Shown piece by piece: positions 1,454 through 44,088 of a stretch of 64,000 nucleotides of DNA. The notes below the pieces were generated by a model. That model did not search any database, was not told where the DNA came from, and saw only the letters and a program-made list of their open reading frames with translations. The DNA comes from Amycolatopsis aidingensis. GTDB taxonomy: Bacteria; Actinomycetota; Actinomycetes; Mycobacteriales; Pseudonocardiaceae. The DNA lies in contig NZ_CP076538.1 of the NCBI RefSeq assembly GCF_018885265.1, forward strand, positions 682,001 through 746,000. The letters run 5' to 3'. Made by a program: the position numbers and the translations under genes. Position 1 is the stretch's first letter; every line of letters begins with the position of its first letter.

Positions 1454-1475
1454 ACGGGCGAGCTGAACGAGCGAG

Positions 1476-11441: not shown

Positions 11442-11638
11442 GAGGGATCCGTTTCCTGACGATCCCGCGCGCCCGTGGATACGTCGGATTTGTCCGAGAA
11501 TAGGCGACCTGCATCCGTCAAGGTCTAGACCATACGGACGAATCTTTTACTGACCCGTCGGTCCGCTTACCGGCCGGTGCCGGGAAATAGGGCAATCGCC
11601 CGATCCATGGGCAGGTTCCTTAGCCGCAGGCTTGCGGT

Positions 11639-13596: not shown

Positions 13597-13665
13597 CCGG
13601 CGACTTTCACAGTCGCGGTCGTCGTCCCGCAACGGGTTTTCCGGGACAACACCAGCTGGATGCGG

Positions 13666-25104: not shown

Positions 25105-25187
25105 CTCGGCCTCCTTGCCGCTCGTGCCCCCTTGCTCTCACCACGGAGCGTAACCCGCGCCGGTGTCCCACGTCACGCCCGCGCCGT

Positions 25188-25922: not shown

Positions 25923-26977
25923 GCCCCGGCCCCCGGCCGGACCAGCACCTTGATCTGGTCGGTGCCCTCGGTGAGCGCATGGAACCCGGCGGTGACCACG
26001 TCCTCCAGCGGGATGATCGAGGTGATCAGCGGGCTCAGGTCCAGCGAACCCTCGCCGACCAGCCGGATCAGCTCGGGATGGCAGTCCCGGTAGCCGACGC
26101 TGGTGATGATCGACTGCTCGTCGTTGACCAGGGCGAAGGCGTCGATGCGCAGCTCGCCGCCCAGTCCGACCAGGATCATCCGGCCGCCAGGCCGGGTCGA
26201 CGCCAGGCAGGTCCGCACCGTGGTCTGCGCGCCGACCACCTCGAACGCGAGGTCCACCCCGGTCCCGTCGGTCAGTGCGCGCACCACCCCAGGGAGGTCG
26301 GGTTGCCTGGCGTCCAGGATGTCCGTGGCGCCAAGGCGGATCGCCAGGTCCAGCCGCTTCGGGTTGAGGTCCGCGGCGATGATCCGGCGTACTCCGCGCT
26401 GGGCGGCCAGCTGCACGATGAGCAGACCGATCGGACCGAGCCCGAGCACCAGCATGGTGTCGGCAGGGAGCAGCTCGGCGCGGCGCAGCGAGTGCAGGGC
26501 CACCGCGGCCGGTTCCAGCAGCGCGGCCTGCTCCAGCGGGAAGGAGTCCGGCAGCGGATGCACCATGTAGGCGGGCACGGTGGCGTACTCGGCGAGGCCA
26601 CCGTTGCCCATCAGCCCGGCGAAACCGAAGTGCCTGCAGATGTTGTACTCCCCGGCGGCGCAGCGGGCACAGGTCCCGCACCGGTAGTTCGGCTCCACGG
26701 CGACCTTGGTGCCCGGCACCAGCCCGGAGACCTCCGGCCCGGTCGCGGTGATCGTCCCGCAGAACTCGTGCCCCAGCACCAGCGGAGCGCGTACCCCGGA
26801 GGCCGGATGCGGCTCGGTCACCGGGATGGCATGCGGGCCGGAGGTGTACTCGTGCAGGTCGCTGCCGCAGATCCCGCAGTAGGCAACTTCGATCCGCACC
26901 TCGCCTGGCCGGGGTTCCGGAATGTCCACAGTGGTCACCCGGACGTCCTTGGCGCCGTGCCACACCGCGGCCCTCAT
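25919..26977 (-). CDS. Zinc-dependent alcohol dehydrogenase (2,3-butanediol/sorbitol dehydrogenase type)
   Basis: A 352-residue medium-chain dehydrogenase. Catalytic zinc ligands are C37 and the H70-E71 pair in GHE. The structural zinc lobe has Cys at 100, 103, 106 and 114. The Rossmann motif GLGPIG is near residue 183. The insert with PHAIPVTEPHP before the GHE motif is characteristic of butanediol dehydrogenases, which oxidise vicinal diols or acetoin. Start ATG at 26977 overlaps the MFS stop (ATGA) and the stop overlaps the SDR start, so all three are one translationally coupled unit. Confidence 0.87.
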   Translation of the reverse strand: MRAAVWHGAKDVRVTTVDIPEPRPGEVRIEVAYCGICGSDLHEYTSGPHAIPVTEPHPASGVRAPLVLGHEFCGTITATGPEVSGLVPGTKVAVEPNYRCGTCARCAAGEYNICRHFGFAGLMGNGGLAEYATVPAYMVHPLPDSFPLEQAALLEPAAVALHSLRRAELLPADTMLVLGLGPIGLLIVQLAAQRGVRRIIAADLNPKRLDLAIRLGATDILDARQPDLPGVVRALTDGTGVDLAFEVVGAQTTVRTCLASTRPGGRMILVGLGGELRIDAFALVNDEQSIITSVGYRDCHPELIRLVGEGSLDLSPLITSIIPLEDVVTAGFHALTEGTDQIKVLVRPGAGA

Positions 26978-28251
26978 CGGACCGGCTCCGGTTCCTGAGC
27001 GGCCGCGGCGGCGCGCCTGCGCAGCACCATCGGCGCGGTTTCCCGCAGCCCGAGGGAGAGCAGCACCACGAGTACCGCGCCACCGGCGGCGATGAACATC
27101 GCCGACTGCAGGCCCCAGATGTCGGAGGCCCAGCCGGCGACCAGCGGGCCGAGGAAGCCGCCCGCTAGCTCGCCGACGCCCATCACCAGGCCGAGCGCGG
27201 TGGCCAGGGCCGCCGGGTGCACGGTCTCCGCCGGGATGGTGGCCATGAACAGGGTGAAGCAGCCGAGTCCGGTGTAGGTCAGCACCACGATCACGCCCAG
27301 CAGCAACGGATCCGCCACGTACACCACGGCCAGCGGGCAGAGCGCGGCGACCGCGGTGAAGGCGATCATCGTGGTCTTGCGCCCGATCCGATCGGAGATC
27401 GCGGGAGTGAGGAAGCCCCACACCACCCAGGCCACCCCGAAGCAGGTCATGACGGCGCTCATGGTTCCCGGTGCGAAGCCCTTGACATCGGTAAGGTACT
27501 TCGGGGTGAAGGTGATGATCACGATGAACCAGGTGAGATAGCAGCAGGCGGCCAGTACGCACAGCAGCACGTTGCGGTGCCGCAGCACCTGCCACAGCGA
27601 GGGTTTCTCCGCGGTTGGGGTGCGTTCGGTGGTCGCCGTGACCCGGCCGAGCGGAGGGGTCTCCCGGACCGAGCGCCAGATCCACAGCGCGATCAGCAGC
27701 CCGGGAATGATGGTGAGGTGGAAGGCCGTCCGCCAGCCGTGCTCCTCGGCGATCCACACCGCCACCAGCGGGCAGACGATGCCGCCGAGCAGACCGGCCG
27801 ATGAGCCCTGCACCAGCCCCATGTTCAGCCCGCGCCGGTGCTCGGCCGAGGCCTCCACCATCAGCGACTGCGCGATCGGCAACACCGCGCCCTCGGCGAT
27901 GCCCATCAGCGCCCTGGCGATCAGCAGCCCGACGAACCCGGTCATCAGCCCGGATGCGGCGGAGAATACGGAGAACATGAGGACCGCGGCGATCAGGATC
28001 GGCTTGCGGGTGCCGAGCCGGTCGGAGAGCCTGCCGAAGAACAGGCCGGAAAGGGCCCAGGTGAGTGCGAGTACCCCGGACAGCGTGCCGAGCTCGGTGT
28101 TGGAGAGCCCGAAGTCGCCGTCGATATAGGGCGCCAGAAAGGACAGTGCCTGCCGATCGAAGAACACGAAACCGAAGGACAGGAACAGGACCGTCAGTAG
28201 CAGGTACTCGTACCGCCGCGCGGGGGTCGCCGGTGACCGGTTGCCGAACAT
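26974..28251 (-). CDS. MFS transporter (anion/organic acid symporter type)
   Basis: A 425-residue transporter with 12 predicted membrane segments. FFDRQALSFLAPYI in helix 1, GRLSDRLGTRKPIL after helix 2 and TPAISDRIGRKT in the second half are standard for the family that imports aromatic acids, hexuronates and similar anions. It starts 15 nt after the cupin gene and overlaps the dehydrogenase gene, so it is probably the uptake system for the operon's substrate. Confidence 0.85.
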   Translation of the reverse strand: MFGNRSPATPARRYEYLLLTVLFLSFGFVFFDRQALSFLAPYIDGDFGLSNTELGTLSGVLALTWALSGLFFGRLSDRLGTRKPILIAAVLMFSVFSAASGLMTGFVGLLIARALMGIAEGAVLPIAQSLMVEASAEHRRGLNMGLVQGSSAGLLGGIVCPLVAVWIAEEHGWRTAFHLTIIPGLLIALWIWRSVRETPPLGRVTATTERTPTAEKPSLWQVLRHRNVLLCVLAACCYLTWFIVIITFTPKYLTDVKGFAPGTMSAVMTCFGVAWVVWGFLTPAISDRIGRKTTMIAFTAVAALCPLAVVYVADPLLLGVIVVLTYTGLGCFTLFMATIPAETVHPAALATALGLVMGVGELAGGFLGPLVAGWASDIWGLQSAMFIAAGGAVLVVLLSLGLRETAPMVLRRRAAAAAQEPEPVR

Positions 28252-28266
28252 GGTGATCGCCTGACC

Positions 28267-28800
28267 TCAGCGGAAGAGCGAGTTGACGTAGTCGGCGCCG
28301 ATGCCGACCTTCTCGTAATGCTTGCGGCACAGGTCGATGTAGTCGTGCACATCGAAGAACCCGGCTGTGTCGCCGTTCTCGTCCAGCCAGATCAGCGGAC
28401 CCTTGACGATGAACATCGTCTTCATCGGCTCGTCGCTCTCGTAGGCGACCAGGGTGTGCCCCTCGCCGGGGGCCTCGTACACGAAGTCGCCTGCCGAGGC
28501 CGTCCAGGGGCGTTCCAGGTACCCCCATTTGCCGGAGATGGTGTAGGCGAACACCTCGTGCGGATGGTAGTGCCGGTTGACCAGTCCGGCCTCCTTGGCG
28601 CGCAGGATGTCCGACCAGGAGTTGTCCTTCACGTTGATCCACAGTGGACGTGATCCGACGGTGTCGGTGAAGGGCGCGTAGTAGCGGTCGTCATCGGTGG
28701 CAACCTGGGAGAGGTAGACCTCCGGTTGCGCATCCGGCTTGAAGGAGTTCTGGATCGGCTTGAGGCCCTTCCAGAACTCGGTGGTGGCCTGCTCGGGCAT
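28267..28800 (-). CDS. Cupin dioxygenase, 2,4'-dihydroxyacetophenone dioxygenase-like
   Basis: A 177-residue single-domain cupin. Motif 1 is HYHPHEVFAYTISGKWGYLE (77-96) with three His and a Glu as metal ligands; motif 2 includes GEGHTLVAY with H115. Length and motif layout resemble non-haem iron dioxygenases that cleave C-C bonds next to ketones (dihydroxyacetophenone dioxygenase and acetylacetone dioxygenase relatives). It is the first gene of the operon, with GGAGGGAAAC before the ATG. Substrate is unknown; with a diol-type dehydrogenase and an SDR it suggests catabolism of a hydroxyketone. Confidence 0.7.
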   Translation of the reverse strand: MPEQATTEFWKGLKPIQNSFKPDAQPEVYLSQVATDDDRYYAPFTDTVGSRPLWINVKDNSWSDILRAKEAGLVNRHYHPHEVFAYTISGKWGYLERPWTASAGDFVYEAPGEGHTLVAYESDEPMKTMFIVKGPLIWLDENGDTAGFFDVHDYIDLCRKHYEKVGIGADYVNSLFR

Positions 28801-28947
28801 GTTTCCCTCCTGTCCGCGACGACTGGTAACGGGCAGTCAACCCCGCCGGGGTGGCGTGGTCTTTCCCAGAAGGGACCTCACCGGTTGCCTGATCCGGACA
28901 TACCGGCAGAAGCTGCGATCTTGGACGACGAGGTGCAGGATGTCCGG

Positions 28948-29646
28948 ATGAGCACTGCGGTAGAGCCGGTGTCCCCGCCCCCGGACTTCCCCGTGTACGG
29001 GCTGGACCAGGCCTGGCAGGGACCGAGGTGGCTGGACTTCTTCGAGGCCAAACAGGGTGCGCCTGCCTGGGCGCTGTGGCTGGGCCATCGCGCCGAGGAC
29101 GGCTCCGGCGGGGTACGGATCGGTACCCTGCCCCGCTCGCGCTACGACGCGACGTTCACTCCCCGTGGCGGCGACAACCTCGCCCCGGTCGCGTTCAGCG
29201 CCGCCTTCGGCCTGGTCAACCTGACCCTGCCGGACGCGGCGGTGCAGCGCCCGGACGGGCTGATCCCCGCGCTGGTCGAACACGCGGAGCAACAGGCCAA
29301 GCGGCACGCCGAGTGGCGCCGGGTCACCTGGGACGTGGAGGGCACCCCGGTCCGGGCCGCGGTGTGGCGGTTCGCCGGCGCATGGGCGGGCTTCACCGAC
29401 GCACTCGGCGGGACGTACCTGGTGGCGGTCGGGATCGAAGTGCAGCCGGAAGGGCTGCGACTGAGCCGCTTCCCCGGCTCCAAGGAGCACGGGATCGACC
29501 TGGACGCCCCGCTGGATCTGGTGGAGCTGGGCAGGCAACGGCATGAGCGCCCGGACACCTGGCTACCCCCACCCCGCCGCGACTCCTTCCACCCCGATCA
29601 GCTCGCCGTCCTGGACCGCCCTTCCCCCACCCCACGAATGCCCTGA
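28948..29646 (+). CDS. Hypothetical protein
   Basis: A 232-residue soluble protein I do not recognise. It is rich in Trp, Pro and Arg, without signal peptide or membrane segment. PPPDFPVYGLDQAWQGPRWLDFFE near the start looks like a conserved recognition block. The start at 28948 is chosen because the open frame upstream lies in the divergent promoter region of the cupin gene. Before the AICE inserted, it would have converged with the MBOAT gene now at 40.2-41.6 kb. Confidence 0.7.
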   Translation: MSTAVEPVSPPPDFPVYGLDQAWQGPRWLDFFEAKQGAPAWALWLGHRAEDGSGGVRIGTLPRSRYDATFTPRGGDNLAPVAFSAAFGLVNLTLPDAAVQRPDGLIPALVEHAEQQAKRHAEWRRVTWDVEGTPVRAAVWRFAGAWAGFTDALGGTYLVAVGIEVQPEGLRLSRFPGSKEHGIDLDAPLDLVELGRQRHERPDTWLPPPRRDSFHPDQLAVLDRPSPTPRMP

Positions 29647-29721
29647 ACGTGGCTTTCGGGACGTTCAACGTCCCAAAAGTGCCGTTCGCAACGTCCAGTG
29701 TCTCGATCGCCACGTTCAGGG
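29641..29721. repeat. Intergenic inverted repeat beside attL
   Basis: Outer arms CCCTGAACGTGGC (29641-29653) and GCCACGTTCAGGG (29709-29721) are perfect 13-bp inverted repeats. An inner pair GGGACGTT/AACGTCCC lies at 29658-29674. The left arm includes the stop codon of the preceding gene. It may serve as a terminator for that gene or be one of the dispersed palindromic repeats of this genus; the second idea needs a genome search. Confidence 0.6.
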
Positions 29722-29751
29722 CGCTGGGTTGTCGGTCGGTGAGCTTGGTTC

Positions 29752-29764
29752 AGAACTGGTAGTA
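29752..29764. repeat. Attachment site, integrase side (attL)
   Basis: AGAACTGGTAGTA, repeated exactly at 40194-40206. It lies 43 bp past the integrase stop codon. Read on the minus strand with the chromosomal base that follows, it gives TAC TAC CAG TTC TGA, the presumed original end of the MBOAT gene. Confidence 0.75.
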
Positions 29765-29806: not shown

Positions 29807-31066
29807 TCAGGCCGCCAGGCCGTCATCGGGCCGTTCGGGGGAGCCAGGCCGGAACCCGAACGCCTTGTCGACAGCCCGCCGGGTCCGGTCCTTGCTGGAC
29901 GGCATCAAGTGCGTGTACGTCCGCAGGGTGAAGCCCGGATCTGCGTGACCCAGGTACTCCGCGAGGGCAGTGATCGTCTCGCCAGCGTCGAGCAGGGTGG
30001 AGGCGTAGAAGTGCCGCAGCGCGTGGAACCCATCGACCCGCGAGACCCGGACCACCCCCGCCTTCTCCAGCGCGGGCACCCACGTCCACTGGTTGTAGAC
30101 CGGCCGCCAAGCCGCTCTGCGGTCCCGGCTGTAGACGTAGACCGTCGCCGAGACGGGTTCACCATCCGGATGCTGCCATGGAAGCGTGACCGTGAGCGGA
30201 GGAAACCTCGCCGAGTGCTCACGGAGCGCGTGCGCCACCGAGTCTGGCAGCGGGATCTCACGCACCTTGCCCCGCTTGGGCGGTCCGAAGCACGGCTTGC
30301 CGTACACGATCTTGACCTGCCGTTGCACGGTCACGCTGCCGTTGCCGAAGTCCACGTCATCGACGGCGAGCCCGAAGACCTCACCCTGCCGCAGGCCGAG
30401 CCCGGCACCCAGCGTGACCGTGATCTTGTAACGCTCCGAGATCGCCTCGTGCACGGCATGTACCCGCTCCAGCGTCCATGGCACGATCTTCCGGGGCTGA
30501 ATCTGTGGCTTGCGGACCGAGGACGCGTTGCACGGGTTCTTCCGGATCAGCTCATCGTCAATCGCCGCGTTCAGGATGGCCTGTACATGGATGAACAGCA
30601 CCTGCCGGTAGCTCGCCGCCAGGCCCTGCTGTTGTAGCGCCCGGTCCCATTCCCTGATCACCGACGGTTTGATCATGTCCAGGTACTTGTCACCGAGGTA
30701 GGGGTAGACATGCTTCCGTAGCCGTACCCCGGTTGACTCGCGTGTGGACTCCTCGAACGTCTGCGACCGTAGCCAGCTTTCGCCGTACTCCCGGAACGGC
30801 ACCTTCCCGGCGTCCGGGTCCGTGTAGCTTCCCCGGTTCATCTCGTGCTCGACCCGGTTCAAGAACTCCTCGGCCGCACGCTTTTGCTTGTCCGGGAACG
30901 ACTTGCTGCGTTCCTTCCCAGTCGGGTCGACGTAGCGCACCTTGTAGCGCATGCCGACGCCGTACAGCTCGGTTCGTTCGAGCTCCGGCTTCCCACGCGC
31001 GTTGAACACTGGCTGACCGGACTCATCTTTCCTCGGCCGGTACCACCGATCTTGAATGTGTCCCAT
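29807..31066 (-). CDS. int: Tyrosine site-specific integrase
   Basis: A 419-residue tyrosine recombinase that integrates and excises the element. Residues ~85-190 are the SAM-like core-binding domain. The catalytic residues are visible: R226 in GLRQGE, H348-x-x-R351 in HALRH, H374 in LGHADPG and nucleophile Y384 in TYTHLM. The N-terminal ~60 residues form an arm-binding-like region. It starts within the excisionase stop (TGATG overlap). Its 3' end lies next to attL, and CCAGGCCG motifs in its last codons match repeats near attR. Confidence 0.92.
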   Translation of the reverse strand: MGHIQDRWYRPRKDESGQPVFNARGKPELERTELYGVGMRYKVRYVDPTGKERSKSFPDKQKRAAEEFLNRVEHEMNRGSYTDPDAGKVPFREYGESWLRSQTFEESTRESTGVRLRKHVYPYLGDKYLDMIKPSVIREWDRALQQQGLAASYRQVLFIHVQAILNAAIDDELIRKNPCNASSVRKPQIQPRKIVPWTLERVHAVHEAISERYKITVTLGAGLGLRQGEVFGLAVDDVDFGNGSVTVQRQVKIVYGKPCFGPPKRGKVREIPLPDSVAHALREHSARFPPLTVTLPWQHPDGEPVSATVYVYSRDRRAAWRPVYNQWTWVPALEKAGVVRVSRVDGFHALRHFYASTLLDAGETITALAEYLGHADPGFTLRTYTHLMPSSKDRTRRAVDKAFGFRPGSPERPDDGLAA

Positions 31067-31257
31067 CAGGCTGCCGCCTCCTGATCAAGCCAGGTTTGCA
31101 GGGCAGCCCGGTCGTAACGCAGGTGCCGTCCGATCTTGCGGACCGGCGGTCCCTCGCCGCGCCATTTCCATTGGTAGAGCGTCTTCACCGGCACGCCGAG
31201 GTACGCCGAGACATCCTCGGCCGTCCATAGTCGCTCGAACCTTCGTGTGTGCTCCAT
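31066..31257 (-). CDS. xis: Excisionase (MerR-type HTH, Xis)
   Basis: A 63-residue DNA-binding protein with one winged HTH: LWTAEDVSAYLGVPVKTLYQWKWRGEGPP, split here as TAEDVSAYLGVP and TLYQWKWRG, then RHLRYDRAALQTWL. This is the standard helix-turn-helix 17 excisionase of AICEs, directing Int toward excision. It is coupled to int by a TGATG overlap and sits 17 nt after the Rep gene. Confidence 0.9.
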   Translation of the reverse strand: MEHTRRFERLWTAEDVSAYLGVPVKTLYQWKWRGEGPPVRKIGRHLRYDRAALQTWLDQEAAA

Positions 31258-31274: not shown

Positions 31275-32906
31275 TCAGACCGCTTGCCGAGTTGCCGAAG
31301 TTTCTGCCCCGCCTGGCGGTCCCTGCGCGGCGAGCAGTGCCCGGTCGTATTCGGCCCGCCAGGAGATGCGTTCCGCGATCGCGTGCATCAGCAGATGCGC
31401 CCGGGGCGGCACGTTCGGGTCACCGGGTGGGACCTTGCGCCACATCAGCCGGGAGGTGTCCTGCTCGGGCTTCTCGATCCCGATCGCGGCCAGCGCGTCC
31501 CGCACGAACGCCTTGCGGTCCGCCTTGTGGTCGGCCAGGGACTTACCCGACCACTTCCGGGAGACCAGCACCCGCCGTCCGGGCAGGCAGAGGGTGGACC
31601 GCCGGTGCGCCCTGCTTTTGCAGTGGCCGGGTGTCATCCGGCCGTGCGCCCCTTTGGGTTGCACCCCGTACAGCAGCCACACCGCACACCGAGGCGAACA
31701 CGGGGTCACAGCGAGTTCCGCGTGGAGCCGTTCGTGGTGTTCCCGCTGCCGCGCGCCCTCGGCTTCCACGACTTCGCCGGTTGCTTTGGTGAGGTACTTG
31801 GTCAGGTACCCGATGTGCCGCCCGGCTTCTTCGGTGCCGCCGAGGATGCCCTTGGAGTGCACCTGCCGCCCGAAGGCCACCACATGCGCGGGTTCCTCCA
31901 CCGCATCCACCGCCGCATCCCAGGCGGTGAGGGGTTGCCGGGTGTCGGGGTCCACGAACCCACGAGCGCGCATGTCCCACTCGGGTAGCCGGTCACTGTC
32001 GTAGACCAGCTCGTCATGCTGGGGCCACCAGACTTGGTGGTAGGTGGCCGCGGTGACCTGCCGGATCACCTCATGCGGAACCGACCCCCGAATCGCCGTG
32101 TGCAGATGCGGAGCCGCCCGCTTCTGCGGTTCCACGGTGGCGAAGTACTGCACGTCCCACCCCACGACCCGGCGCAGGTTCTGCCACCACCGGTCGACCA
32201 AGGCGGAGAAGTGCACCGCATCCCGCGCCGCCCTGCGATAGTCGTAGGAGTCCGGGTCGACGGGGGTGCCGTCGTCGCGGACCCGGCCGTAGGTGTCCAG
32301 GGTGAGGGTGACGAACATGGATGGCCGGAACCGGCCCGCATACTCCCGCCCGACCGTGGTCTTGGCGACCTTCTTACGCGGCAGGTCCGGTGCGTCCTGT
32401 CGCCGCCGGGTGGACCGCTTCCGAGCCGGAGTCACGGCCGGTTCCGGGGAGGGCAGCCGTCCCCGCATCCCCGTCGCCCGTAACTCGTCATCCAGACCCC
32501 GGATGTCGTCGCGCAGCTCTTCGGCCTGCCCAGCCTCACCCTCGCCCAGGGCTTGCCGGTAGGCGTGCACGAGGTCCGCCCGCGCCTCCAGCAGTTCGGT
32601 CTGCTGCTGGGTGGGAGGCTCGGGGGTGAAGTCGGGTTCCTCGGTCAGGTGCCAGCCCTCGCGGCACTGCGCCTGCCGCAGCGCCTTCGCCTTCCGCGCA
32701 CACGGCAGGCACACACTTTCCACGGTGCTGCCACACGGCACGGGGACGTAGCGCAGTTCCCCGGTGTCGGGATCGCCGACCTCCATGGTGAACGGCCGCA
32801 CACACACCCCGTGCTTTTCCGCCGTGGCCGCCACCACCTCAGTCGATAAGGGCAGCCGCATCCGCTCCGCCCGAGTCCGGCCGGCGGCTTCTGACGTGGT
32901 GCTCAT
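31275..32906 (-). CDS. Rolling-circle replication initiator (RepSA-like)
   Basis: A 543-residue initiator. Rolling-circle motifs appear in order: motif 1 FVTLTLD (198-204), motif 2 PHLH (266-269, metal-binding His pair) and motif 3 GYLTKYLTK (366-374, with nicking Tyr candidates Y367 and Y371). An N-terminal Cys cluster (C58, C66, C69, C81) probably binds zinc. The middle 95-180 is charged and linker-like. It nicks the element's origin for replication of the excised circle. The ATG at 32906 overlaps the upstream stop (TGATG), with GAGGTGG before it. Confidence 0.87.
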   Translation of the reverse strand: MSTTSEAAGRTRAERMRLPLSTEVVAATAEKHGVCVRPFTMEVGDPDTGELRYVPVPCGSTVESVCLPCARKAKALRQAQCREGWHLTEEPDFTPEPPTQQQTELLEARADLVHAYRQALGEGEAGQAEELRDDIRGLDDELRATGMRGRLPSPEPAVTPARKRSTRRRQDAPDLPRKKVAKTTVGREYAGRFRPSMFVTLTLDTYGRVRDDGTPVDPDSYDYRRAARDAVHFSALVDRWWQNLRRVVGWDVQYFATVEPQKRAAPHLHTAIRGSVPHEVIRQVTAATYHQVWWPQHDELVYDSDRLPEWDMRARGFVDPDTRQPLTAWDAAVDAVEEPAHVVAFGRQVHSKGILGGTEEAGRHIGYLTKYLTKATGEVVEAEGARQREHHERLHAELAVTPCSPRCAVWLLYGVQPKGAHGRMTPGHCKSRAHRRSTLCLPGRRVLVSRKWSGKSLADHKADRKAFVRDALAAIGIEKPEQDTSRLMWRKVPPGDPNVPPRAHLLMHAIAERISWRAEYDRALLAAQGPPGGAETSATRQAV

Positions 32907-33301
32907 CAGGCGGCCACCTCCCCGGTCCACTCGTGCAGCAGCGAGAGCGGCGCATGCTGGGTCACCCCGGCGGTGAGGGTGGGGAACACGGCCGGGTCGT
33001 AGGCGAGCCCGCCCCAGACCTCGATCGGGAACCCGGAGGGCATCCGCCCGCACACGGTGACCAGCACCCCGTCTCCGGCGGTGGTGTAGCGGCGCAACTC
33101 AACATGCGGATGGTCGAGGGTGGCGGCCCAGGCCAGCAGCGCCCCGGCCAGCGCACCCCGTCCCGGCGAGAGGTGGACCTCCACCGGCCGATCGTCGTCC
33201 GCCGACACCCGCACCGAATACGGCCCCGGAAGGCCATACCCGTCCAGGTGCGCCCGGAAAGCGTCCAGGAACGGCCGCACGTCCTCTGTGGTGGTGTTCA
33301 T
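32906..33301 (-). CDS. AICE-conserved hypothetical protein between traB and rep
   Basis: A 131-residue soluble protein of unknown function. It has the pattern of a small alpha/beta domain (GPYSVRVSADDDRPVEVHL, then GVLVTVCGRMPSGFPIEVWGG). Both ends overlap neighbouring genes (ATGA with traB, TGATG with rep), showing a tightly coupled operon. A protein in this position is common in pSAM2-like elements. No motif allows a functional call. Confidence 0.75.
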   Translation of the reverse strand: MNTTTEDVRPFLDAFRAHLDGYGLPGPYSVRVSADDDRPVEVHLSPGRGALAGALLAWAATLDHPHVELRRYTTAGDGVLVTVCGRMPSGFPIEVWGGLAYDPAVFPTLTAGVTQHAPLSLLHEWTGEVAA

Positions 33302-34791
33302 GCCACTGCACCCCCATCCCGCTCGCCGCGCTCGGGGAACGACAGGACTTGCGCCCGATGGGTAGGCACCCCGGTCACGGTCGTGACCAGCTCATCCAGA
33401 TCGTCATCAGTCACGTGGAACGCCCGGGCACGGAACGGTTCCCGCCGCCCGTCTTCCTTCGCCCAGGCGACACCCGGGGTCTGCTCCGAGATCTCATGCG
33501 CCGTCGCGCCCCGCTCACGCACCCCGTCCCCTAACACCATGTCGACCTGTTGCTTCTCATCCAGGCGCATCGCGATCCGGGTGGTGAACAGGTGCCGGAA
33601 CCCCACCACCTCCTTACGCGGGTCTTGGAGCAGGCCGAGGACGCACACGCCCGGGGCGCGGCCTTGGCTGGTGATGGTCTGCACGGCCCTGGTCGCGCGT
33701 TCGCGCAGGGTTTTGTCCGGCTGGTAGGCGATCACGTCCGCCAGCTCGTCCACCACCAGCAGCAGGAACGGATCACCCGTCGACGGCGACCAGGACCGCA
33801 ACCAGCCCCGATACCGCGAAGCCCGGGTCTTGACCTCGGTGGCGATGTCTTCCAGCAGCGCCACCGCATCCGGCCCGTTGTCGAACACCACCCGATTGCC
33901 GAACACTTCCGGAGCCTGCCCGAGTTCCATCCCGCCCTTCGGGTCGATCCCGTACAGCCGGACCTGCCCGGTGCGGATCATCGGCGCCAGGGCACGGACG
34001 ATGGCCCACAGCAGTGAACCCTTCCCGGCGCCGGACACGCCCACGACGAGCAGGTGCCGGGCGAGCAGCCGCAGCCGCCACAGCTTCCCGGTCTCGGTGC
34101 GCCCGACCGGCAGCCGCTTCAGATCCACCCCGGCTGCATCGTCCGCCAGTGCCGGGGCCGGAATCGGCCGCTGGAGTGGGTCACGGTGCACGAAGTCCAG
34201 CTCCAGGCGACCCGGCTTGCGCACCCGCACCCGGCACGAGGACGCCTTGAAGGCATGCGCCAACCCCGAGGCGTGGGCTTCCCACTGCTCCGGCGCCTGG
34301 CCCTTGACCATGCGGACCCGCACCCGGTCCCGCCATCCCTCGGAGCGGACCCGGCCGAGTTTCGGGCGGTGTTCTTTGCCGCGTACGAGCTTGACCAGGT
34401 CTGACAGCCGCATCACCGACCGCCAGTCGGCCGAGTAGACCGCGAGTTGCCGGATCTCGGAGCGGGCCGGTCCGGCGATGCGCCAGAACGAGTCCGGATG
34501 CACCCGCCACCACACCACCAGCCCCACCGTGAGCCCGGCGACCGTGCCGCCCACCGCCCAGTGACCCGCGATCATGTCGAACCAGGCCGTCACCACAGCG
34601 GCGAGCACGAGCAGCGGGTAGCGCCACACCACCCGACCCAGCAGCGCCAGCAGCCACGCCAGCACCCAGACCACAGCGACCGGCAGACAGACGAGCTTGA
34701 CCCAGCCGGGCAGCAGGGTCCACCACGGCAACCGAGGCCGGGCGATCTCCAACGGCGCCGGATCCACCCAGCGCGACTCCCGCGCACCCAT
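33298..34791 (-). CDS. FtsK/SpoIIIE-type conjugal DNA translocase (TraB/TraSA-like)
   Basis: A 497-residue motor protein for AICE transfer. N-terminal membrane helices span about residues 31-95, a DNA-binding/linker region follows, and the ATPase has Walker A GVSGAGKGS (251-259) and Walker B FLLLVVDEL (342-350). The C-terminal TTVTGVPTHR region may recognise the cis-acting transfer locus, which is inference. Family members form a hexameric pore and move double-stranded DNA between mycelia. The ATG at 34791 overlaps the stop of a small zinc-finger ORF. Confidence 0.9.
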   Translation of the reverse strand: MGARESRWVDPAPLEIARPRLPWWTLLPGWVKLVCLPVAVVWVLAWLLALLGRVVWRYPLLVLAAVVTAWFDMIAGHWAVGGTVAGLTVGLVVWWRVHPDSFWRIAGPARSEIRQLAVYSADWRSVMRLSDLVKLVRGKEHRPKLGRVRSEGWRDRVRVRMVKGQAPEQWEAHASGLAHAFKASSCRVRVRKPGRLELDFVHRDPLQRPIPAPALADDAAGVDLKRLPVGRTETGKLWRLRLLARHLLVVGVSGAGKGSLLWAIVRALAPMIRTGQVRLYGIDPKGGMELGQAPEVFGNRVVFDNGPDAVALLEDIATEVKTRASRYRGWLRSWSPSTGDPFLLLVVDELADVIAYQPDKTLRERATRAVQTITSQGRAPGVCVLGLLQDPRKEVVGFRHLFTTRIAMRLDEKQQVDMVLGDGVRERGATAHEISEQTPGVAWAKEDGRREPFRARAFHVTDDDLDELVTTVTGVPTHRAQVLSFPERGERDGGAVA

Positions 34792-34964
34792 CACCGACCA
34801 CCCCCAACCACTGGGAGGGGTAGCGGGAGCCTGCCCGCGCACCGGTTGCAGGTGGCCTCGCCCGGCAGCAGCCGAGCGAACCTCTTGCAGGTGGCACACC
34901 GGGTTGGGCGCGGTTGGGGGACCCCCTCTGGCGCCGACCGTGGTGTGTTGTCTAGCCTTGCCAT
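34791..34964 (-). CDS. Small CxxC...CxxC zinc-finger protein
   Basis: A 57-residue ORF. An ATG at 34964 follows GGAG by 8 nt, and its TGA overlaps the traB ATG in a TGATG junction. Residues about 23-43 contain two Cys pairs, CATC and CNRC, spaced 12 residues apart, as in a treble-clef or zinc-ribbon knuckle. The rest is Pro/Arg-rich. Coupling to traB and the intact Cys pairs argue for a real gene. The role is unknown; transfer or regulation is plausible. Confidence 0.62.
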   Translation of the reverse strand: MARLDNTPRSAPEGVPQPRPTRCATCKRFARLLPGEATCNRCAGRLPLPLPVVGGGR

Positions 34965-36491: not shown

Positions 36492-36537
36492 TCAACTAGA
36501 CTCGGCGCGCAGGCGCAGAGAGCTGAGGAGGAGCCCG

Positions 36538-37287
36538 GTGTCAGAGCACATGTACGAGCGGATAGCCGCCGCTTTGCGCGAGCAAATCGTGAACGGAAGC
36601 CTGCCCCCTGGCGAGCGACTACCGTCACAAGAAGCGCTGAGCGAGCAGTACGACGTGTCTCGCATTGTGGCCCGGCAAGCACTGGACATCCTGGAAAACG
36701 AAGGACTGATCGACCGGACCAAGCGCATCGGCGCGTTCGTCCGCCGGTACCAACCGCTGGTCAGGCGCTCATCCCAGCACTACCGCACCAACCCCGGCGC
36801 CCCCTTCGCCGAAGAAGCCCTCGCCGCCGAACGCATCCCCCGCTACAGCCATACCACCTACCCCGACCGGGCCGACGCCGACATTGCGAAGCGGCTGAAC
36901 ATCCCGGTCGGCGCCGACGTGATGCGCACCGACTACGTGTCCTACGCCAACGACGAGCCCATGATGCTCACCCACTCCTACGAACCGCTGGCGATCACCA
37001 AGGGCACCCCCATCGAGCGCCCCGAAGAAGGCATCCACATGACCGCCGGTCTGGTCGACCGGTTCACCGCGATCGACATGCGACCCACCCGCGTGGTCGA
37101 ACGCCTGCGTTCCCGTATGCCCCGCCCCTCAGAGATCGAAGCGCTGCACCTGCGCCGAGGGACACCCGTGGTGATCGTCATGCGGACCACGCTCAAGGAC
37201 GACACGCCACTGGAGACCGCCGACATCCTGCTGGACGCGCACCGGTTCGAGCTTGAATACACGCTGGACGTGCCGCCATTGCCATAA
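36538..37287 (+). CDS. GntR/UTRA-family repressor (KorSA-like)
   Basis: A 249-residue regulator. The winged HTH (about 5-70: ALREQIVNGSLPPGERLPSQ, then VSRIVARQALDILENEG) is followed by a UTRA ligand-binding domain (about 95-245). In pSAM2 the equivalent KorSA represses pra and itself, keeping the element integrated. The GTG at 36538 is preceded by GAGGAGGAG; an ATG 12 nt later is possible. The three palindromes just upstream are its probable binding sites. It is the only core gene transcribed rightward. Confidence 0.85.
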   Translation: MSEHMYERIAAALREQIVNGSLPPGERLPSQEALSEQYDVSRIVARQALDILENEGLIDRTKRIGAFVRRYQPLVRRSSQHYRTNPGAPFAEEALAAERIPRYSHTTYPDRADADIAKRLNIPVGADVMRTDYVSYANDEPMMLTHSYEPLAITKGTPIERPEEGIHMTAGLVDRFTAIDMRPTRVVERLRSRMPRPSEIEALHLRRGTPVVIVMRTTLKDDTPLETADILLDAHRFELEYTLDVPPLP

Positions 37288-37349: not shown

Positions 37350-37736
37350 TCAGCAGTTCAGCAGCTCAGGCTTCTGATTGAGGATCTGCGAGCGCGCCGA
37401 GGTGAACTCGGCATACTCAGCGGTCGCGTCCGGCCGGAACAGCCCCACCTTGCAGCAGTTCTGAAACGCCAGTCGCATGTTGAAGTGGCGCTCCACCGCC
37501 GCCCGCATCGCATCACTGGCCACCAGCCGGAACAACTGACCCCACGCCTGCTCATCCGGCGGAACATCCCCGTTCACCACGAACGGACCACCATCCGCCG
37601 CCAGCTCACCGGCGGTGCGCTCCACCACCGACCAGGCGTAGGGCAGCGAGTCCTGAATACAGCGGATGAAGTCCTCATCCCGGATCTCACCAGCCTGCGC
37701 CTGATCAACCAACTCCGGCGGCACGGTCAACGACAT
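37350..37736 (-). CDS. Hypothetical AICE protein
   Basis: A 128-residue soluble, acidic, helical protein of unknown function (PPELVDQAQAGEIRDEDFIR near the start; AYAWSVVERTAGEL-like and FRLVASDAMRAAVERHFN later). The ATG at 37736 has GAGGAGAGG upstream; the frame is open to 37763 but the first codons overlap that ribosome-binding site. Similar ORFs next to the repressor occur in related elements, but I cannot name the family. Confidence 0.62.
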   Translation of the reverse strand: MSLTVPPELVDQAQAGEIRDEDFIRCIQDSLPYAWSVVERTAGELAADGGPFVVNGDVPPDEQAWGQLFRLVASDAMRAAVERHFNMRLAFQNCCKVGLFRPDATAEYAEFTSARSQILNQKPELLNC

Positions 37737-37893
37737 GGACCTCTCCTCACTCGCGGAACACAAAAGGCCACCAGCAGTTAACCGCGCCGACCAGCACTGT
37801 GGCGACCGCCAAGCCGAGTGAACTTCTCTGACGCTCAGTCACCGCTTCCACGCTGGCGTGGTAGCAAGTTCGCCCTCTTGAACCGTCAGGAGG

Positions 37894-38049
37894 CTAGTCC
37901 TTGTCTATGCAGTCCTTGCAGCGACGGTAGTTGTTTGTCCCAGGAGCTTTGTTGTGCTGCGGAATCTGTCGTCCCGTAGGGCAGTCATCGTAGTCGTGAT
38001 AGACGTCCGGGTCGGTCGGATTCTTGGAGTGGTAAGGCGACACTTTCAT
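37894..38049 (-). CDS. Small conserved hypothetical protein
   Basis: A 51-residue protein with an excellent AGGAGG ribosome-binding site before the ATG at 38049. It is rich in Tyr, Asp, Asn and Lys (YHDYDDCPTGRQIP) with three Cys, two in RRCKDC at the end. Codon use is less G+C-biased than in the neighbours. Function is unknown; a small metal-binding or cargo-associated protein is possible. Confidence 0.6.
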   Translation of the reverse strand: MKVSPYHSKNPTDPDVYHDYDDCPTGRQIPQHNKAPGTNNYRRCKDCIDKD

Positions 38050-38694
38050 TGGTTCCTCCTGCGCTGTCCGATTGATCGACATGCAGTAACGAGCATCATG
38101 CGCCGTTTGGGCCATCAGCGGAACCCTACAAAACGAAAAACCGACGACGAATCGGTAACGTTGTTTTCTGACTCGGTTGATGCTTGACCTGTTGATGCTT
38201 GACCCCCGCGAATGCCTGCCCAGCTTTGCTAGCGTGTACAGGTGCGGCTGGTCATGTGCTGCCGAATTAGGCTCTAGGGGATCAAGGCGCGCCGCCAGCG
38301 GCGGCGCGCACGCGGCCCCTCACCCTGACAGCCCACGCCGCATCCATCGCGGCACACGCCGGGCTGCCGCTCCGCTCACGCCCGGCGGGCCGCGCGGCGC
38401 AGCCACCACAGGCGGTCCCCAGCACGCCGCCGCTGGCGACCCACATGACGCATAGCCAGCTCGGCAGACCTAGACACCCCTTCGCGCCACAATCGTCTTA
38501 CGCCGCGCCGACCGCCTCAAGGGCGCCTACGGCGTCGCTCCGCGATGAGCTGCGCTCACCCTTGACCCGGCCAGCACGGCGCAAAGCAGCGGCAAGGGCG
38601 AAGGGAAGGAGACTCGCTGGCCATAGGAGCCTGTGCTCCCGTAACAGCACGCCTTCCGCCTGAGATATAGAGCCAAGTCAAAGGAGTGAGATCA
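38050..38694. other. Non-coding region with strong hairpins in the AICE
   Basis: About 645 bp without a credible gene. It contains a perfect 10-bp inverted repeat with a 3-nt loop (GCGCGCCGCC / GGCGGCGCGC, 38287-38309) and a 7-bp pair TCAAGGG/CCCTTGA at 38517-38523 and 38560-38566. The left 150 bp are A+T-richer and could hold promoters. Such a structured gap in a rolling-circle element could be a replication origin or transfer site, but the nick sequence is not identifiable by eye. Confidence 0.5.
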
Positions 38695-40038
38695 TTGGGC
38701 GAAAATTTGCTAGACGAAGGCACGACACGGATGGGTTGGCTCATTGATGACAACCCCGAGACTCCTGAGATAGCTGTCATGCTCAAAAATACCGGAAAGG
38801 AAATCGTCCTTACCGTTCCAACTAAGGGTCTGGCTAGTACAGATGACCCGTACGCTCTGTGGTTTTCGTCTGGCATTCACTATGCGGCAGATCCTGAAAA
38901 GGTTCGCCGCCAGTATAGGCCGCCGCGGGTGTTGTTATTTCAGGATAATGACGGCACGGTAGTACTGGTAGGCTGTCGTGACGCCGGGTTCACATCCACA
39001 GTAGGGGCAGGTCACGGAAAAATTGTCGCCAACTTTGCAATTCTTGGCGGTAAGAGCCTGCGATACAACAAGATTAACGGCGTGAGATCAGAACTTCCAG
39101 CGATTGTTGAGTGGACTGGACTGAGAAGCGTTCATGCGGACCCAGAAGCGGATAATCAGGGTCGCGTTCAGAAGGTCCAGATAAAACTAGAATCACCTAG
39201 TCCGTCCCCTCTAAATCGTCGAATGAACCTAAATTTGAGACCAACATGGCGCACTTCGTTCCCCCGTCATGCTGGAACATTCTCGGCGCATGACATTGTT
39301 CAGCTTGAAACTACATCAAGAAGGCCCATGGCCTGGAAAGATCACCTAGAACAACATGTTGCTATGAGGGACCTTATTGTTCTCGCAGGTTGGCATCCGT
39401 TCGGTTTCTCTCGTCTAGAGGTGAATCGAATCGACGATCCGGAGACGTTTCTAAGTGGAGACGTATCCGGGCCCCGATGGGCTAGGGTTGTCACTCATCG
39501 GGTCCAGAGACATGAAGAGCGTGATCGCAGAAATGAATTTTTGTTCAATTTTGACGACATTGGTTATCAAGGGGTGCGTAAATGGCTCAAGTTACGTTCT
39601 CATTTTGCACGCGCTATTGATCCGGTTGTTGCGCTGGCTGATCAGCAAGGTGGTTTTTGGGAAACTCGTATGGTCCAGAGTGGTATCGCACTTGAGGCGC
39701 TCGGGTATCAATTGGAGACCGACAACGGCGGCACGGAATTCAATAGCCGCGGGCAAATTACCTACATGGATGCACTCGGCAAAATTCTAGCCGATATGTC
39801 GTATATTCCAATAGATGATCCTGACGACTGGAAGCAACGCTCGCGTGAATGTTATATGGGTGTAAAACACGCGGACAATTCGACGCCGGATTCCTTGATT
39901 TTGGCTAATACATTACGTGAAAACTTGCTCGTTGTACGTTTCTGGCTAGCCTCTCGTCTTGGATGCAAGAAACATTCCTTGCGACGGCGACGTGATCTCG
40001 ATCCATTGGCTGCCAGGTACGTTCCAGTTGGAGAGTAG
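38695..40038 (+). CDS. Candidate ApeA-like HEPN anti-phage protein (AICE cargo)
   Basis: About 447 residues. The N-terminal half (GWLIDDNPETPEIAVMLKN; PRVLLFQDNDGTVVLVGC; ELPAIVEWTGLRSVH) resembles the ApeA N-terminal domain. The C-terminal ~150 residues are helical, with RSRECYMGVKHAD (about 405-417) as a HEPN-like RNase motif, although the R-to-H spacing is longer than the textbook Rx4-6H. G+C is near 50% by eye, far below its neighbours, so it was acquired from another source. The TTG at 38695 follows AAGGAG by 8 nt; GTG 38686 and ATG 38731 are alternatives. Its place at the element's edge is typical for cargo. Function is inferred from the fold pattern only. Confidence 0.5.
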   Translation: MGENLLDEGTTRMGWLIDDNPETPEIAVMLKNTGKEIVLTVPTKGLASTDDPYALWFSSGIHYAADPEKVRRQYRPPRVLLFQDNDGTVVLVGCRDAGFTSTVGAGHGKIVANFAILGGKSLRYNKINGVRSELPAIVEWTGLRSVHADPEADNQGRVQKVQIKLESPSPSPLNRRMNLNLRPTWRTSFPRHAGTFSAHDIVQLETTSRRPMAWKDHLEQHVAMRDLIVLAGWHPFGFSRLEVNRIDDPETFLSGDVSGPRWARVVTHRVQRHEERDRRNEFLFNFDDIGYQGVRKWLKLRSHFARAIDPVVALADQQGGFWETRMVQSGIALEALGYQLETDNGGTEFNSRGQITYMDALGKILADMSYIPIDDPDDWKQRSRECYMGVKHADNSTPDSLILANTLRENLLVVRFWLASRLGCKKHSLRRRRDLDPLAARYVPVGE

Positions 40039-40191: not shown

Positions 40192-41628
40192 CTAGAACTG
40201 GTAGTACAAAAAGGGGCTGAAGGTGCCGGTGGCGACCAGGATGGCGGCGTAGGCGAGGCCAACGGTCATCACGGTGACGCGCAGCGCGGTGGCCGGGCGG
40301 CTGCGCGAGGATTCCAGCAGGGGGCCGGTCACCGGGTGCGCGGGCAGCGCGAACATGGTCAGCGCGGCCAGCAGGATCACCAGCCGCTGGTTGGTCAGCG
40401 AGGCGTCCACCAGATCGGTGAGGCCCTCGAAGTCGGGCAGGAACATGTGCCCGAGCATGGTCAGTGCCGAGCCGAGGTCGGCGGACTTGAAGAACACCCA
40501 GCCGAAGATCACCAGGACCAGGGTCAGCAGCCTGCGGGCGATCCGCGGGCCGGTGGCGCTGGGGGTGCGGTCCCAGCCGAAGGCGCGCTCGATGATCAGC
40601 AGCGCACCGTGATAGGCGCCCCAGACCAGGAAGGTCCATGCCGCGCCATGCCAGAAACCGGTCAGCACGAACACGATGCACAGGTTGCGATAGGTCTTGC
40701 GGGCGCCGCCACGGTTGCCGCCGAGCGGGATGTAGACGTAGTCGCGGAACCAGCGGGACAGCGACATGTGCCAGCGGCGCCAGAACTCGGTGATCGTCAC
40801 CGAGGCGTACGGCCGCGCGAAGTTCTCCGGCAGCCGGAAGCCGAGCATCCGGCCGAGCCCGACCGCCATGTCCGAGTACCCGGAGAAGTCGAAGAACAGT
40901 TGCAGCGTGTAGGCCACCGCGCCGAGCCAGGCGATGCTGAAGGTCATCTCCTCGGAGGGGGTGGCGAAGCACGCGTCCACCATCGGCGCGAGCGAGTCGG
41001 CGATGATCGCCTTCTTGCACAGGCCCAGTGCGAACCGGGGGAATCCGGCCGCGATGTCGTCCAGCCGGTGCGAGCGCAGCTGCGGCAGCTGGTCGGCGAT
41101 CTCCCGATACCGCACGATCGGTCCCGCGGCCAGCTGCGGGAACATCGCGATGTAGGTGCCGAACGCCACCGGGTTGCGCAGCGCGCGCCGTTCGCCGCGG
41201 TAGATGTCCACCACGTAGGAGATGTGGTGGAAGGTGAAGAACGAGATCCCGATCGGCAGCGCCAGCTCCACCACCGGAAAGTCCCCGCCGAGCAGCTGGG
41301 TGAAGGCCGCGATCTGCTCGGTGGCGAACCCGGCGTACTTCCAGATCACCAGGATGGACAGGTCGAAGGCGACCACCCCGACCAGCGTCCAGCGCCGCCG
41401 CCTTGCCGGCCGCATGCCCCACTCGTCGGGCTCCAGCGCGGGCCCGGCCAGGAAGTTGACCACCATGCAGGTGAGCAACAGCAGGGTGAACGCCCCGGCG
41501 CCGGTGGCGTAGAAGAGCAGGCTGCCGACGGCGACGATGCCGTTACGCCAGGTCCTCGGGCACACCAGCACGGCGAGCAGCACCGCCGGCATGAAGTACC
41601 ACAGGAACAGTGGCGATACGAACGACAT
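40192..41628 (-). CDS. MBOAT-family O-acyltransferase (AlgI-like)
   Basis: A 478-residue membrane protein with about 10-12 hydrophobic segments that passes acetyl groups across the membrane for O-acetylation of an exported polymer. LPIGISFFTFHHISYVVD, FFDFSGYSDMAVGLGRML and FWRRWHMSLSRWFRDYV are AlgI/DltB blocks; GFWHGAAW contains the catalytic His. Its last codons TAC TAC CAG TTC TAG lie in the AICE attachment site: the coding end is supplied by the element's own attR flank, restoring the same residues. The exported AlgX/AlgJ-type partner is not adjacent; one lies at 2.3-3.6 kb. Confidence 0.9.
   Translation of the reverse strand: MSFVSPLFLWYFMPAVLLAVLVCPRTWRNGIVAVGSLLFYATGAGAFTLLLLTCMVVNFLAGPALEPDEWGMRPARRRRWTLVGVVAFDLSILVIWKYAGFATEQIAAFTQLLGGDFPVVELALPIGISFFTFHHISYVVDIYRGERRALRNPVAFGTYIAMFPQLAAGPIVRYREIADQLPQLRSHRLDDIAAGFPRFALGLCKKAIIADSLAPMVDACFATPSEEMTFSIAWLGAVAYTLQLFFDFSGYSDMAVGLGRMLGFRLPENFARPYASVTITEFWRRWHMSLSRWFRDYVYIPLGGNRGGARKTYRNLCIVFVLTGFWHGAAWTFLVWGAYHGALLIIERAFGWDRTPSATGPRIARRLLTLVLVIFGWVFFKSADLGSALTMLGHMFLPDFEGLTDLVDASLTNQRLVILLAALTMFALPAHPVTGPLLESSRSRPATALRVTVMTVGLAYAAILVATGTFSPFLYYQF
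40194..40206. repeat. Attachment site, distal side (attR)
   Basis: AGAACTGGTAGTA, identical to 29752-29764, forming codons for the final Tyr-Tyr-Gln-Phe and the first stop base of the MBOAT gene. The stop is TAG here (element-derived) and would be TGA at the empty site. Confidence 0.75.
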
Positions 41629-41738
41629 CCTGAGCGGGCCCCCTGGTCACGGTTTGGCAACGTGACCCTAGCCGAGGCCCTGGGCTGTCCGGGTGAGAAC
41701 CGGCCGAATGTGCCGTTCGTTGCACCCGCGACGGGTGG

Positions 41739-42695
41739 TCAGGTGCGGCCGCGCACCCGGCGCCTGCGGGCCACCTCGGCGAGCAGCACGCCCGCCGCGA
41801 CCGAGGCGTTCAGCGACTCGACCCCGGCCGCCATCGGGATGGACACCGTGGCGTCGCAGGTCTCCCGCACCAGCCGGGACAGCCCCCTGCCCTCGGAACC
41901 GACCACCACGACCAGCGGGTCGGTGGCCAGTTCGAGGCCGTCGATCTCCACCGAGCCGTCCGCGTCCAGGCCGACCAGCATGAGCCCTTCGTCGGCCCAG
42001 GATCGCAGCTGCCGGGTGAGGTTCGTCGCCACCGCGATCGGCAGCTTGGCCGCGGTACCCGCGCTGGTGCGCCAGGCCACCGCCGTCATCCCGGCACTGC
42101 GCCGCGCGGGCAGCAGCACCCCGTGCGCACCGAACGCGGCCGCCGAACGGATCACCGCCCCGAGGTTGCGCGGGTCGGTCACCCCGTCCAGCGCGACCAG
42201 CAGCGGCGGGTCGCCGGAGTCCTGGGCACTGCGCAGCAGGTCGTCCGGATGGCCGTAGTCGAACGGCGGTACCTGCAGCCCGAGCCCCTGATGCATGGCC
42301 CGGTTGGTCTTGCGGTCCAGCTCCTCGCGGGGCACCTCCAGGATCGAGATGCCCCGGTCCGCGGCGAGCTGCACGGCCTCCTTGATCCGGTCGTCGGTGT
42401 CCACATGCAGCGCGACGTAGAGCGCGGTGGCGGGCACCTCGGCCCGCAGCGCCTCGACCACCGGGTTGCGGCCCGCGATCAGCTCCGGCCCCTCGGCCTT
42501 GCCTGCCCGCGACTTCTCCGCCTTGGCCTTGGCCATCGCACGCCGCTGCGCCGGGTGCCCGGTGCGGTTCTCGGCCTTCGGCGTCGGGCCCTTGCCCTCG
42601 AGCCCCTTGCGCCGCTGGCCGCCGGAGCCGACGACCGCGCCCTTCTTCGTGCCGGGCTTGCGGATTGCGCCCCGGCGCCGGGAATTGCCTGCCAT
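41739..42695 (-). CDS. rlmB: 23S rRNA (guanosine-2'-O)-methyltransferase RlmB (TrmH/SpoU family)
   Basis: A 318-residue SPOUT methyltransferase that modifies 23S rRNA with S-adenosylmethionine. The first ~70 residues are a basic Lys/Arg/Gly-rich tail typical of actinobacterial versions, and ~73-150 is the RNA-binding substrate domain ([14 protein letters not shown]). SPOUT motif 1 is [12 protein letters not shown], motif 2 [14 protein letters not shown], motif 3 [20 protein letters not shown]. It begins right after cysS (4-nt gap) on the same strand, the usual actinobacterial order. Confidence 0.92.
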
Positions 42696-42699
42696 ATTC

Positions 42700-44088
42700 C
42701 TAGTCTCTTACTGTCCACATAGGACCGTTGGCGGTGTCCTCCACCGCGATGCCTGCTTCGGTGAGCCGGTCGCGCAGTGCGTCGGCCCGCGCGAAGTCCC
42801 GCTCGGCGCGGGCGGCCTGGCGCTCCTCCAACATTCCTTCGACCAGCCCGGTCAGTGCCTGGCGCAGCGGCGCGTCGCCGCCGCCCGCTTCGGCCCACTG
42901 CTCGGACAGCGGGTCCAGGCCGAGCACCTCGGTCATCGCCCGCACCGCGGCGGCGCACTTGAGCGCGGTGGAGGTGTCGGAATCGGCCAGCGCGGCGTTA
43001 CCCTCGCGCACCGTGTTGTGCAACACGGCGAAGGCCTGCGGGGTGCCGAGGTCGTCATCCAGCGCGGCGGCGAAGTCCGGCGGCACCTCGCCTGCCCGCA
43101 CCGTGCCCGCCGTGCTGGTGACCAGCCGGAGGAACTGCTCGATCCGCCGGTAACCCTGGGCCGCCTCGGACAGCGCCTCGTCGGAGTACTCGATGGTCGA
43201 ACGGTAGTGCGGCTGGATCAGGTAGTAGCGCAGCTCCACCGCCCGGCAGGCACGCAGCATCTGCGGGATCGAGACCACGTTGCCGAGCGATTTGGACATC
43301 TTCTCGCCGGAGAGGGTCACCCACGCGTTGTGCAGCCAGAACCGGGCGAACGGGTCGCCGGCCGCGGTGGACTGGGCACGCTCGTTCTCGTGGTGCGGGA
43401 ACACCAGGTCGACGCCGCCACCGTGGATGTCGAACTCGGCGCCGAGGTAGGTGGTCGCCATCGCCGAGCACTCAAGGTGCCAGCCGGGCCTGCCCCGGCC
43501 CCACGGCGTCGGCCAGGACGGCTCGCCCGGTTTGGCGCTCTTCCACAGCGTGAAGTCGCGCGGGTCCCGCTTGCCGGTGGCCGCGCTCTCACCCTGCTGG
43601 ACCTCGTCCACCCGCTGCCCGGACAGCGTGCCGTAGCCGGGGAAGGAGGTGACCGAGAAGTACACGTCCCCGCCCTCGGCGTAGGCGTGCCCGGACTCGA
43701 TCAGCCGCTCCATCAGCTCGACCATCTGGGTCACATGCCCGGTGGCCCGGGGCGCGATCGAGGGCGGCAGGCAGCCAAGCGTCTCGTAGGCACCCTCGAA
43801 CGCGCGTTCGTGCTGGAACGCCCAATCCCACCATGGCCTGCCCGCATCGGCCGCCTTGTCCAGGATCTTGTCGTCGATATCGGTGACGTTGCGGACCATC
43901 CGCACGTCCAGTCCACTGTGGAGCAGCCAGCGCCGGAGGACGTCGTAGTTCAGCGCGCCCCGTACGTGGCCGATATGCGGGATGCCCTGCACGGTGGCCC
44001 CACACACGTACATCGACGCGGTTCCACTACGCGCGGGATGGAACTCCCGCAGCTGCCGGGTCGCGGTGTCGTAGAGGTGTAAGGCCAC
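42700..44088 (-). CDS. cysS: Cysteinyl-tRNA synthetase
   Basis: A 462-residue class I synthetase charging tRNA-Cys. HIGH-type motif is PHIGHVRG (about 37-44) and the KMSKS loop is EKMSKSLGN (about 265). Zinc ligands include the Cys in YVCGATVQ and the Cys-His-His set around WHLECSAM and FPHHENE. The C-terminal DALR/anticodon region has [14 protein letters not shown]. Start is the GTG at 44088. It lies in the conserved block ispD-ispF-cysS-rlmB, interrupted here only by a HAD hydrolase gene. Confidence 0.95.

Follow-up and report, generated by a model that had tools for sequence, protein, structure and literature searches.

ApeA, reportedly described by Gao et al. in 2020, combines the ApeA_NTD1 and HEPN_Apea domains, and the title of a preprint names deoxydinucleotides as its trigger. 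Actinomycete integrative and conjugative elements (AICEs) of the pSAM2 type carry integration, replication and transfer genes between direct repeats. The active site of HEPN ribonucleases (RNases) consists of an Rx4-6H motif at the end of helix 3 together with an acidic helix-2 residue; HEPN families that have lost the Arg are on record (2013 analysis, PMC3710099). In the HEPN protein of the type IX retron the canonical motif is missing, and defence depends on its His and on an Arg located far from it (PMC13405049). Deoxydinucleotide-specific nucleases (diDNases) occur with AICE genes in 16% and near defence genes in 41.9% of cases (PMC11706625). Here, we describe a gene of Amycolatopsis aidingensis (38695..40038, plus strand, 447 aa) that lies within a 64,000-nt stretch of contig NZ_CP076538.1 (positions 682,001 to 746,000; hereafter the window) as the cargo of an AICE-like element. 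Its product (the window protein) is most likely an RNase of the ApeA kind, a one-gene abortive-infection system whose HEPN site is a variant, both defence and RNase activity being roles that we infer.

The gene is a real open reading frame (ORF) with a TTG start. Its frame is open from a GTG codon at 38686 to 40038, and the TTG at 38695 agrees with the N-termini of homologues (MGENLL..). The ApeA_NTD1 profile (PF18862) matched the window protein with 111.6 bits versus a cut-off of 25.5 (E 6.2e-32), which bears out the ApeA-like N-terminus proposed in an initial annotation made from the sequence. The AlphaFold2 (AF2) model of the whole 447-aa protein reached a predicted local distance difference test score (pLDDT) of 90.3 and a predicted template modelling score (pTM) of 0.87. 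A separate model of the C-terminal domain (pLDDT 91) retrieved mainly HEPN structures, as the annotation had anticipated, and the domain is predicted to adopt the four-helix HEPN fold; in the predicted structure a helix of residues 376-391 is followed by H392, and E334 lies within helix 322-343. The combination that the annotation had named as speaking against its proposal, i.e., no profile match to ApeA or HEPN families and no HEPN bundle, was therefore not what we found. The HEPN_Apea profile, the second that the annotation had proposed to search, nevertheless did not match the window protein even at E values as high as 10. The N-terminal domain of the window protein group (group W, see below) resembles that of canonical ApeA only distantly (54.7%, E 1.2e-4). 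At the same threshold HEPN_Apea matched 9 of the 30 members of set A1 (best E 2.5e-5), and none of the PADLOC, NCBIfam and HEPN_Apea models recognises the window protein.

The G+C content of the gene is 0.500 versus a mean of 0.702 (sd 0.024, minimum 0.638) for 1186 further segments of the same length (1344 nt), which overlap and were taken at steps of 50 across the 64 kb, so that the earlier impression of a gene of about 50% G+C in a background of about 70% agrees with measurement; the portion of the element left of the gene has a G+C content of 0.670. The gene is the last of the element, between the transfer and regulator genes and the right att core. Its position by attR had been given correctly, while the adjoining region, described as non-coding, holds a possible 51-aa ORF (37894-38049, minus strand) whose product has one CxxC pair.

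The canonical Rx4-6H motif of ApeA is not present in the window protein: Tyr (Y387) occupies the position of the canonical Arg, five residues before the catalytic-type His (H-5), and the nearest Arg residues upstream of H392 are at H-8 and H-10. Homologue searches, which scored only the approximately 8000 candidates sharing most words, yielded three groups: (i) group C, canonical ApeA relatives (39 of 57 matches, those longer than 400 aa); (ii) group W, the window protein and 65 of 70 matches, those longer than 400 aa (P0001, a copy of the window protein, was excluded); and (iii) group M, 57 of 74 matches, mycobacterial and nocardial where named, whose query was chosen partly because it showed Lys-His (KH). 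Group C has Arg at H-5 in 37/39 and Rx4-6H in 38/39 sequences. All members of group W have the His and Lys at H-1 (66/66 each), with Tyr at H-5 in 61/66, Arg at H-5 in 0/66 and Rx4-6H in 4/66; the corresponding values for group M are 57/57 for His and for Lys, 55/57 for Tyr and 4/57 for Rx4-6H. Comparison of C-terminal domain profiles joined W with M (96.4%, E 1.1e-9, KH on KH), and neither of them with group C. Groups W and M together with four loci (L092, L093, L094 and L050) make up 127 KH-type domains, from which the KH filter removed none; L095 (internal stop), L048 and L047 (which shows KH) stand outside this set. K391 and H392 are found in 127/127 of these domains, E334 and W379 in 126/127 and Y387 in 120/127.

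The segment RSRECYMGVKHAD (residues 382-394 of the 447-aa protein), which the initial annotation had read as a HEPN-like site, does hold K391-H392. The Arg of its RSREC part was rejected as the HEPN Arg, because R382 is not conserved throughout the clade, in which the invariant basic residue is K391. The new HEPN subgroup suggested from the atypical R-to-H spacing is upheld at the sequence level, with a clade-wide Y-x3-K-H in place of R-x4-H. Alternatively, the function of the lost Arg may be taken over not by K391 but by R408 or R382, which are present in 66/66 and 59/66 sequences of the close group W, much as the type IX retron HEPN relies on an Arg far from its His (PMC13405049); neither residue, however, is found in as many as 85% of the 127 KH-type domains, all of which carry K391, and we regard this as rather unlikely. 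It is still somewhat less likely that the HEPN-fold domain is no RNase at all and that K391-H392 bind a ligand or partner, the protein serving as a sensor or its gene stabilising the element by addiction. The loss of the usual Arg and the solitary position of the gene beside the att end would fit such a role, and a substrate-binding function has been proposed for the HEPN domains of nucleotidyltransferase fusions, in which the motif is lost (PMC3710099), but the two HEPN-site residues besides Arg, the His and the helix-2 Glu, are kept at the frequencies given above, and the type IX retron HEPN still needs its His and distant Arg for defence despite the missing canonical motif (PMC13405049).

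In the favoured explanation, an abortive-infection RNase with a shifted basic residue, the beta-rich N-terminal domain would detect an infection, probably through deoxydinucleotides set free as DNA is degraded, and the HEPN-fold C-terminal domain would act as a dimer and cut RNA, which may halt growth ahead of phage spread. The putative site would consist of H392, the adjacent K391 replacing the Arg at H-5, and E334. This proposal draws on the 2013 HEPN analysis, the type IX retron HEPN, the ApeA title and the diDNase report; deoxydinucleotide sensing by the window protein would be carried over by analogy from the title of the ApeA preprint. The window protein resembles ApeA in (i) the N-terminal family, (ii) two-domain order, (iii) size, (iv) the HEPN-fold C-terminus, (v) the conserved helix-2 Glu, (vi) the catalytic-type His and (vii) occurrence as a gene alone (PMC7699616, PMC10952713). 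It differs in having Y-x4-H with Lys before the His instead of R-N-x3-H, in lacking a HEPN_Apea match and in belonging to an actinobacterial clade. With the type IX retron HEPN (retron-Kva2) it would share the character of a defence HEPN without the canonical motif, but in the retron a distant Arg meets the His (PMC13405049), whereas in the window protein the KH pair is adjacent, the putative sensor domain is of the ApeA type and a retron is absent.

A phylogeny restricted to N-terminal parts, built from 68 hand-picked sequences after removal of the last 165 residues (L046 was dropped as too short), placed 43 of 44 KH sequences on one branch (support 98/97). The exception, L048, has a very long branch and its placement is unsure; L092, L093 and P0028 fit both motif patterns and were scored as KH. 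The KH label needs 2 changes on the tree, a value as low as this being reached in none of 500 shuffles (mean 20.1), and 2% of 200 bootstrap trees require just 1 change. The minority of sequences bearing an organism name are all from Actinomycetota. Across 396 genomes surveyed from this phylum, ApeA_NTD1 matched 13 times in 12 genomes: 7 matches are of Rx4H type, 5 of KH type (among them L048, where H-5 is W) and the last, L046, is without a readable HEPN part. In 80 genomes of the same genus, the only matches were the window protein itself and a weak one in G451 (E 2.4e-4). The canonical query retrieved 76 plasmid records, with R-[NHD]-x3-H in 10/10 of those inspected, while the four relatives on plasmids of the Arthrobacter group retrieved with the window protein are all KH. 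In one plasmid relative, from Pseudarthrobacter (L095, 4788-6206), a stop divides the gene into two annotated ORFs; the same stretch holds TIR, caspase-family, EcoRI-type methylase and DUF262 genes.

A scan of genome contigs gave 7 loci, which are not independent evidence for KH because the KH motif was one of the two seed patterns. Their five long loci were inspected for neighbouring genes. The relative lies directly 3' of HsdR and HsdS genes in L033, after an integrase gene in L032, near GmrSD, TIR and methylase genes in L029 and near an AAA_21 gene in L030; no clear defence neighbour was seen by eye in L031. In L029 (8866-12206) the relative stands between two luciferase-like monooxygenase genes. 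These were considered as one gene split by insertion, which was rejected: the two flanking copies cover overlapping parts of the profile and share just 52% identity, and are therefore two genes. We also weighed whether the gene of the window mainly targets rival mobile elements or the re-entry of related AICEs rather than phages. Its conjugative-type host element, and the use of the same site by a related element with other cargo (see below), would suit such a target, yet relatives are also found next to type I restriction genes and elsewhere, and we consider it improbable as the main role.

The element is approximately 10.44 kb long and is flanked by 13-bp direct repeats (AGAACTGGTAGTA) at 29752 and 40194, the only two occurrences of this 13-mer on both strands of the 64-kb window (Table 1). 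The right repeat lies at the 3' end of a gene that we take to encode an MBOAT-type acyltransferase, matched in 24/24 same-genus genomes sampled (its own and 23/23 others). In G440, the closest relative sampled, 25925-29764 of the window aligns at 91.5% to 7440-11278, and 40196-43931 at 93.6% to 11268-15001 of the same stretch; the flanks abut and therefore mark an empty site. A cluster of the window (24151-28800) that G440 shares, in which genes of AraC type and SDR, alcohol dehydrogenase, MFS and cupin genes were named by eye, lies outside the DNA blocks in common with the six other sister stretches compared. Genome G004 was rejected as an empty site (the neighbour gene has the other orientation), as were a second AICE at the same site in G011, where 10 kb look by eye like ordinary chromosomal genes, and a tRNA target, the sole tRNA of the window being at 58919. 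The integrase, RepSA, FtsK-type transfer and GntR genes and a xis-like ORF make the element AICE-like in gene content; the initial annotation's view of AICE cargo is thus confirmed by genes, repeats and empty site. The same genes, direct repeats and cargo at an att end are shared with pSAM2-type AICEs (PMC11706625); the window element differs in targeting the 3' end of a protein gene and in having no NUDIX gene among the 10 ORFs scanned. The small ORFs at the place of Spd had no Pfam match.

In G485 the same MBOAT end is occupied by a related element whose cores lie at 181 and 14469 and whose integrase pieces are 75-79% and RepSA 77% identical. Its cargo differs and includes a gene, presumably XRE plus ImmA-like, at 53% G+C, and mainly on this basis the element appears to have a changeable cargo slot. 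In this element (L091, read reversed, 181-14481) the integrase is interrupted, and a gene of 50% G+C (537-1853) adjoins the left repeat. A related element in G441 has genes of 49-52% G+C right of its transfer genes; no comparable low-G+C gene was found in the G471 relative among ORFs of at least 110 aa in the stretch compared (lowest 0.61). The boundaries of the element, the identity and predicted fold of the protein domains, the conservation of the site and the clade are established. That the AICE-like element in the MBOAT 3' end carries a single-gene ApeA-like defence module, a HEPN RNase with a shifted basic residue, is probable, with sensing, RNA cleavage, dimerisation, the part played by K391 and defence as the conditional parts.

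Table 1. Features of the element, its cargo gene and the integration site (window coordinates).
Feature	Position	Strand	Basis
attL core AGAACTGGTAGTA	29752..29764	+	repeat search, empty-site comparison
Tyrosine integrase	29807..31066	-	PF00589, 56.7 bits
Probable excisionase, 63 aa, helix-turn-helix-like	31066..31257	-	translation read by eye
RepSA replication initiator	31275..32906	-	PF20199, 344.4 bits
FtsK/SpoIIIE-type transfer protein (TraB/TraSA-like)	33298..34794	-	PF01580, 41.1 bits
GntR-UTRA regulator	36532..37287	+	PF00392, 72.1 bits; PF07702, 60.2 bits
PF20704 (KH_NucS_shadow) protein, between gntR and cargo slot	37350..37763	-	190.9 bits
Ribosome-binding site AAAGGAG	38680..38686	+	8 nt before TTG start, direct sequence reading
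ApeA-like gene, 447 aa: N-terminal ApeA_NTD1, C-terminal HEPN-fold domain	38695..40038	+	Pfam, AF2
ApeA_NTD1 domain, residues 15-290	38737..39564	+	PF18862; coordinates converted from 450-aa frame
HEPN-fold domain, residues 297-424	39583..39966	+	range aligned to HEPN chain 2hsb; domain-alone model
E334, acidic residue of HEPN helix 2	39694..39696	+	kept in 126/127
Variant active-site motif Y387-M-G-V-K391-H392	39853..39870	+	conservation in 127 relatives
attR core AGAACTGGTAGTA, 3' end of MBOAT gene	40194..40206	+	repeat search, empty-site comparison
MBOAT-type acyltransferase gene, 3' end = integration site	40192..41628	-	same-genus matches

Defence cargo in AICEs is already known, as restriction and AIPR abortive genes have been reported there (PMC9513070). 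The ApeA-like clade and its site did not turn up in our searches of the open-licence literature, which found no ApeA-like AICE cargo, KH clade or variant site, only the 2013 HEPN analysis for the ApeA defence system in Streptomyces, and no papers for Gao_Ape with Streptomyces or for AICE with anti-phage. The AICE-borne diDNases are likewise defence-linked AICE cargo and act on deoxydinucleotides (PMC11706625), the trigger in the ApeA title, but are a nuclease family, unlike the ApeA-like cargo. No frame of diDNase size was seen in the genome of the window, only PF01612 frames of 421 and 1032 aa. A broader and more doubtful proposal is that a large actinobacterial ApeA-type clade, with a rearranged HEPN site whose basic residue is Lys at H-1 instead of Arg at H-5, comprises active deoxydinucleotide-triggered RNases spread by AICEs, and that AICE diDNases would act as an off-switch or counter-defence by removing the trigger.

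The locus presents an ApeA-like gene as cargo in a conjugative-type element of an actinomycete, delimits this element exactly, places the gene in a slot filled otherwise in a related element, and defines a clade whose HEPN site breaks the Rx4-6H rule. If the protein is active, it raises the question of how a HEPN RNase functions without Arg in the usual position. It also suggests a testable link between the ApeA activation by deoxydinucleotides named in the preprint title and the deoxydinucleotide-specific nucleases carried by AICEs (PMC11706625).
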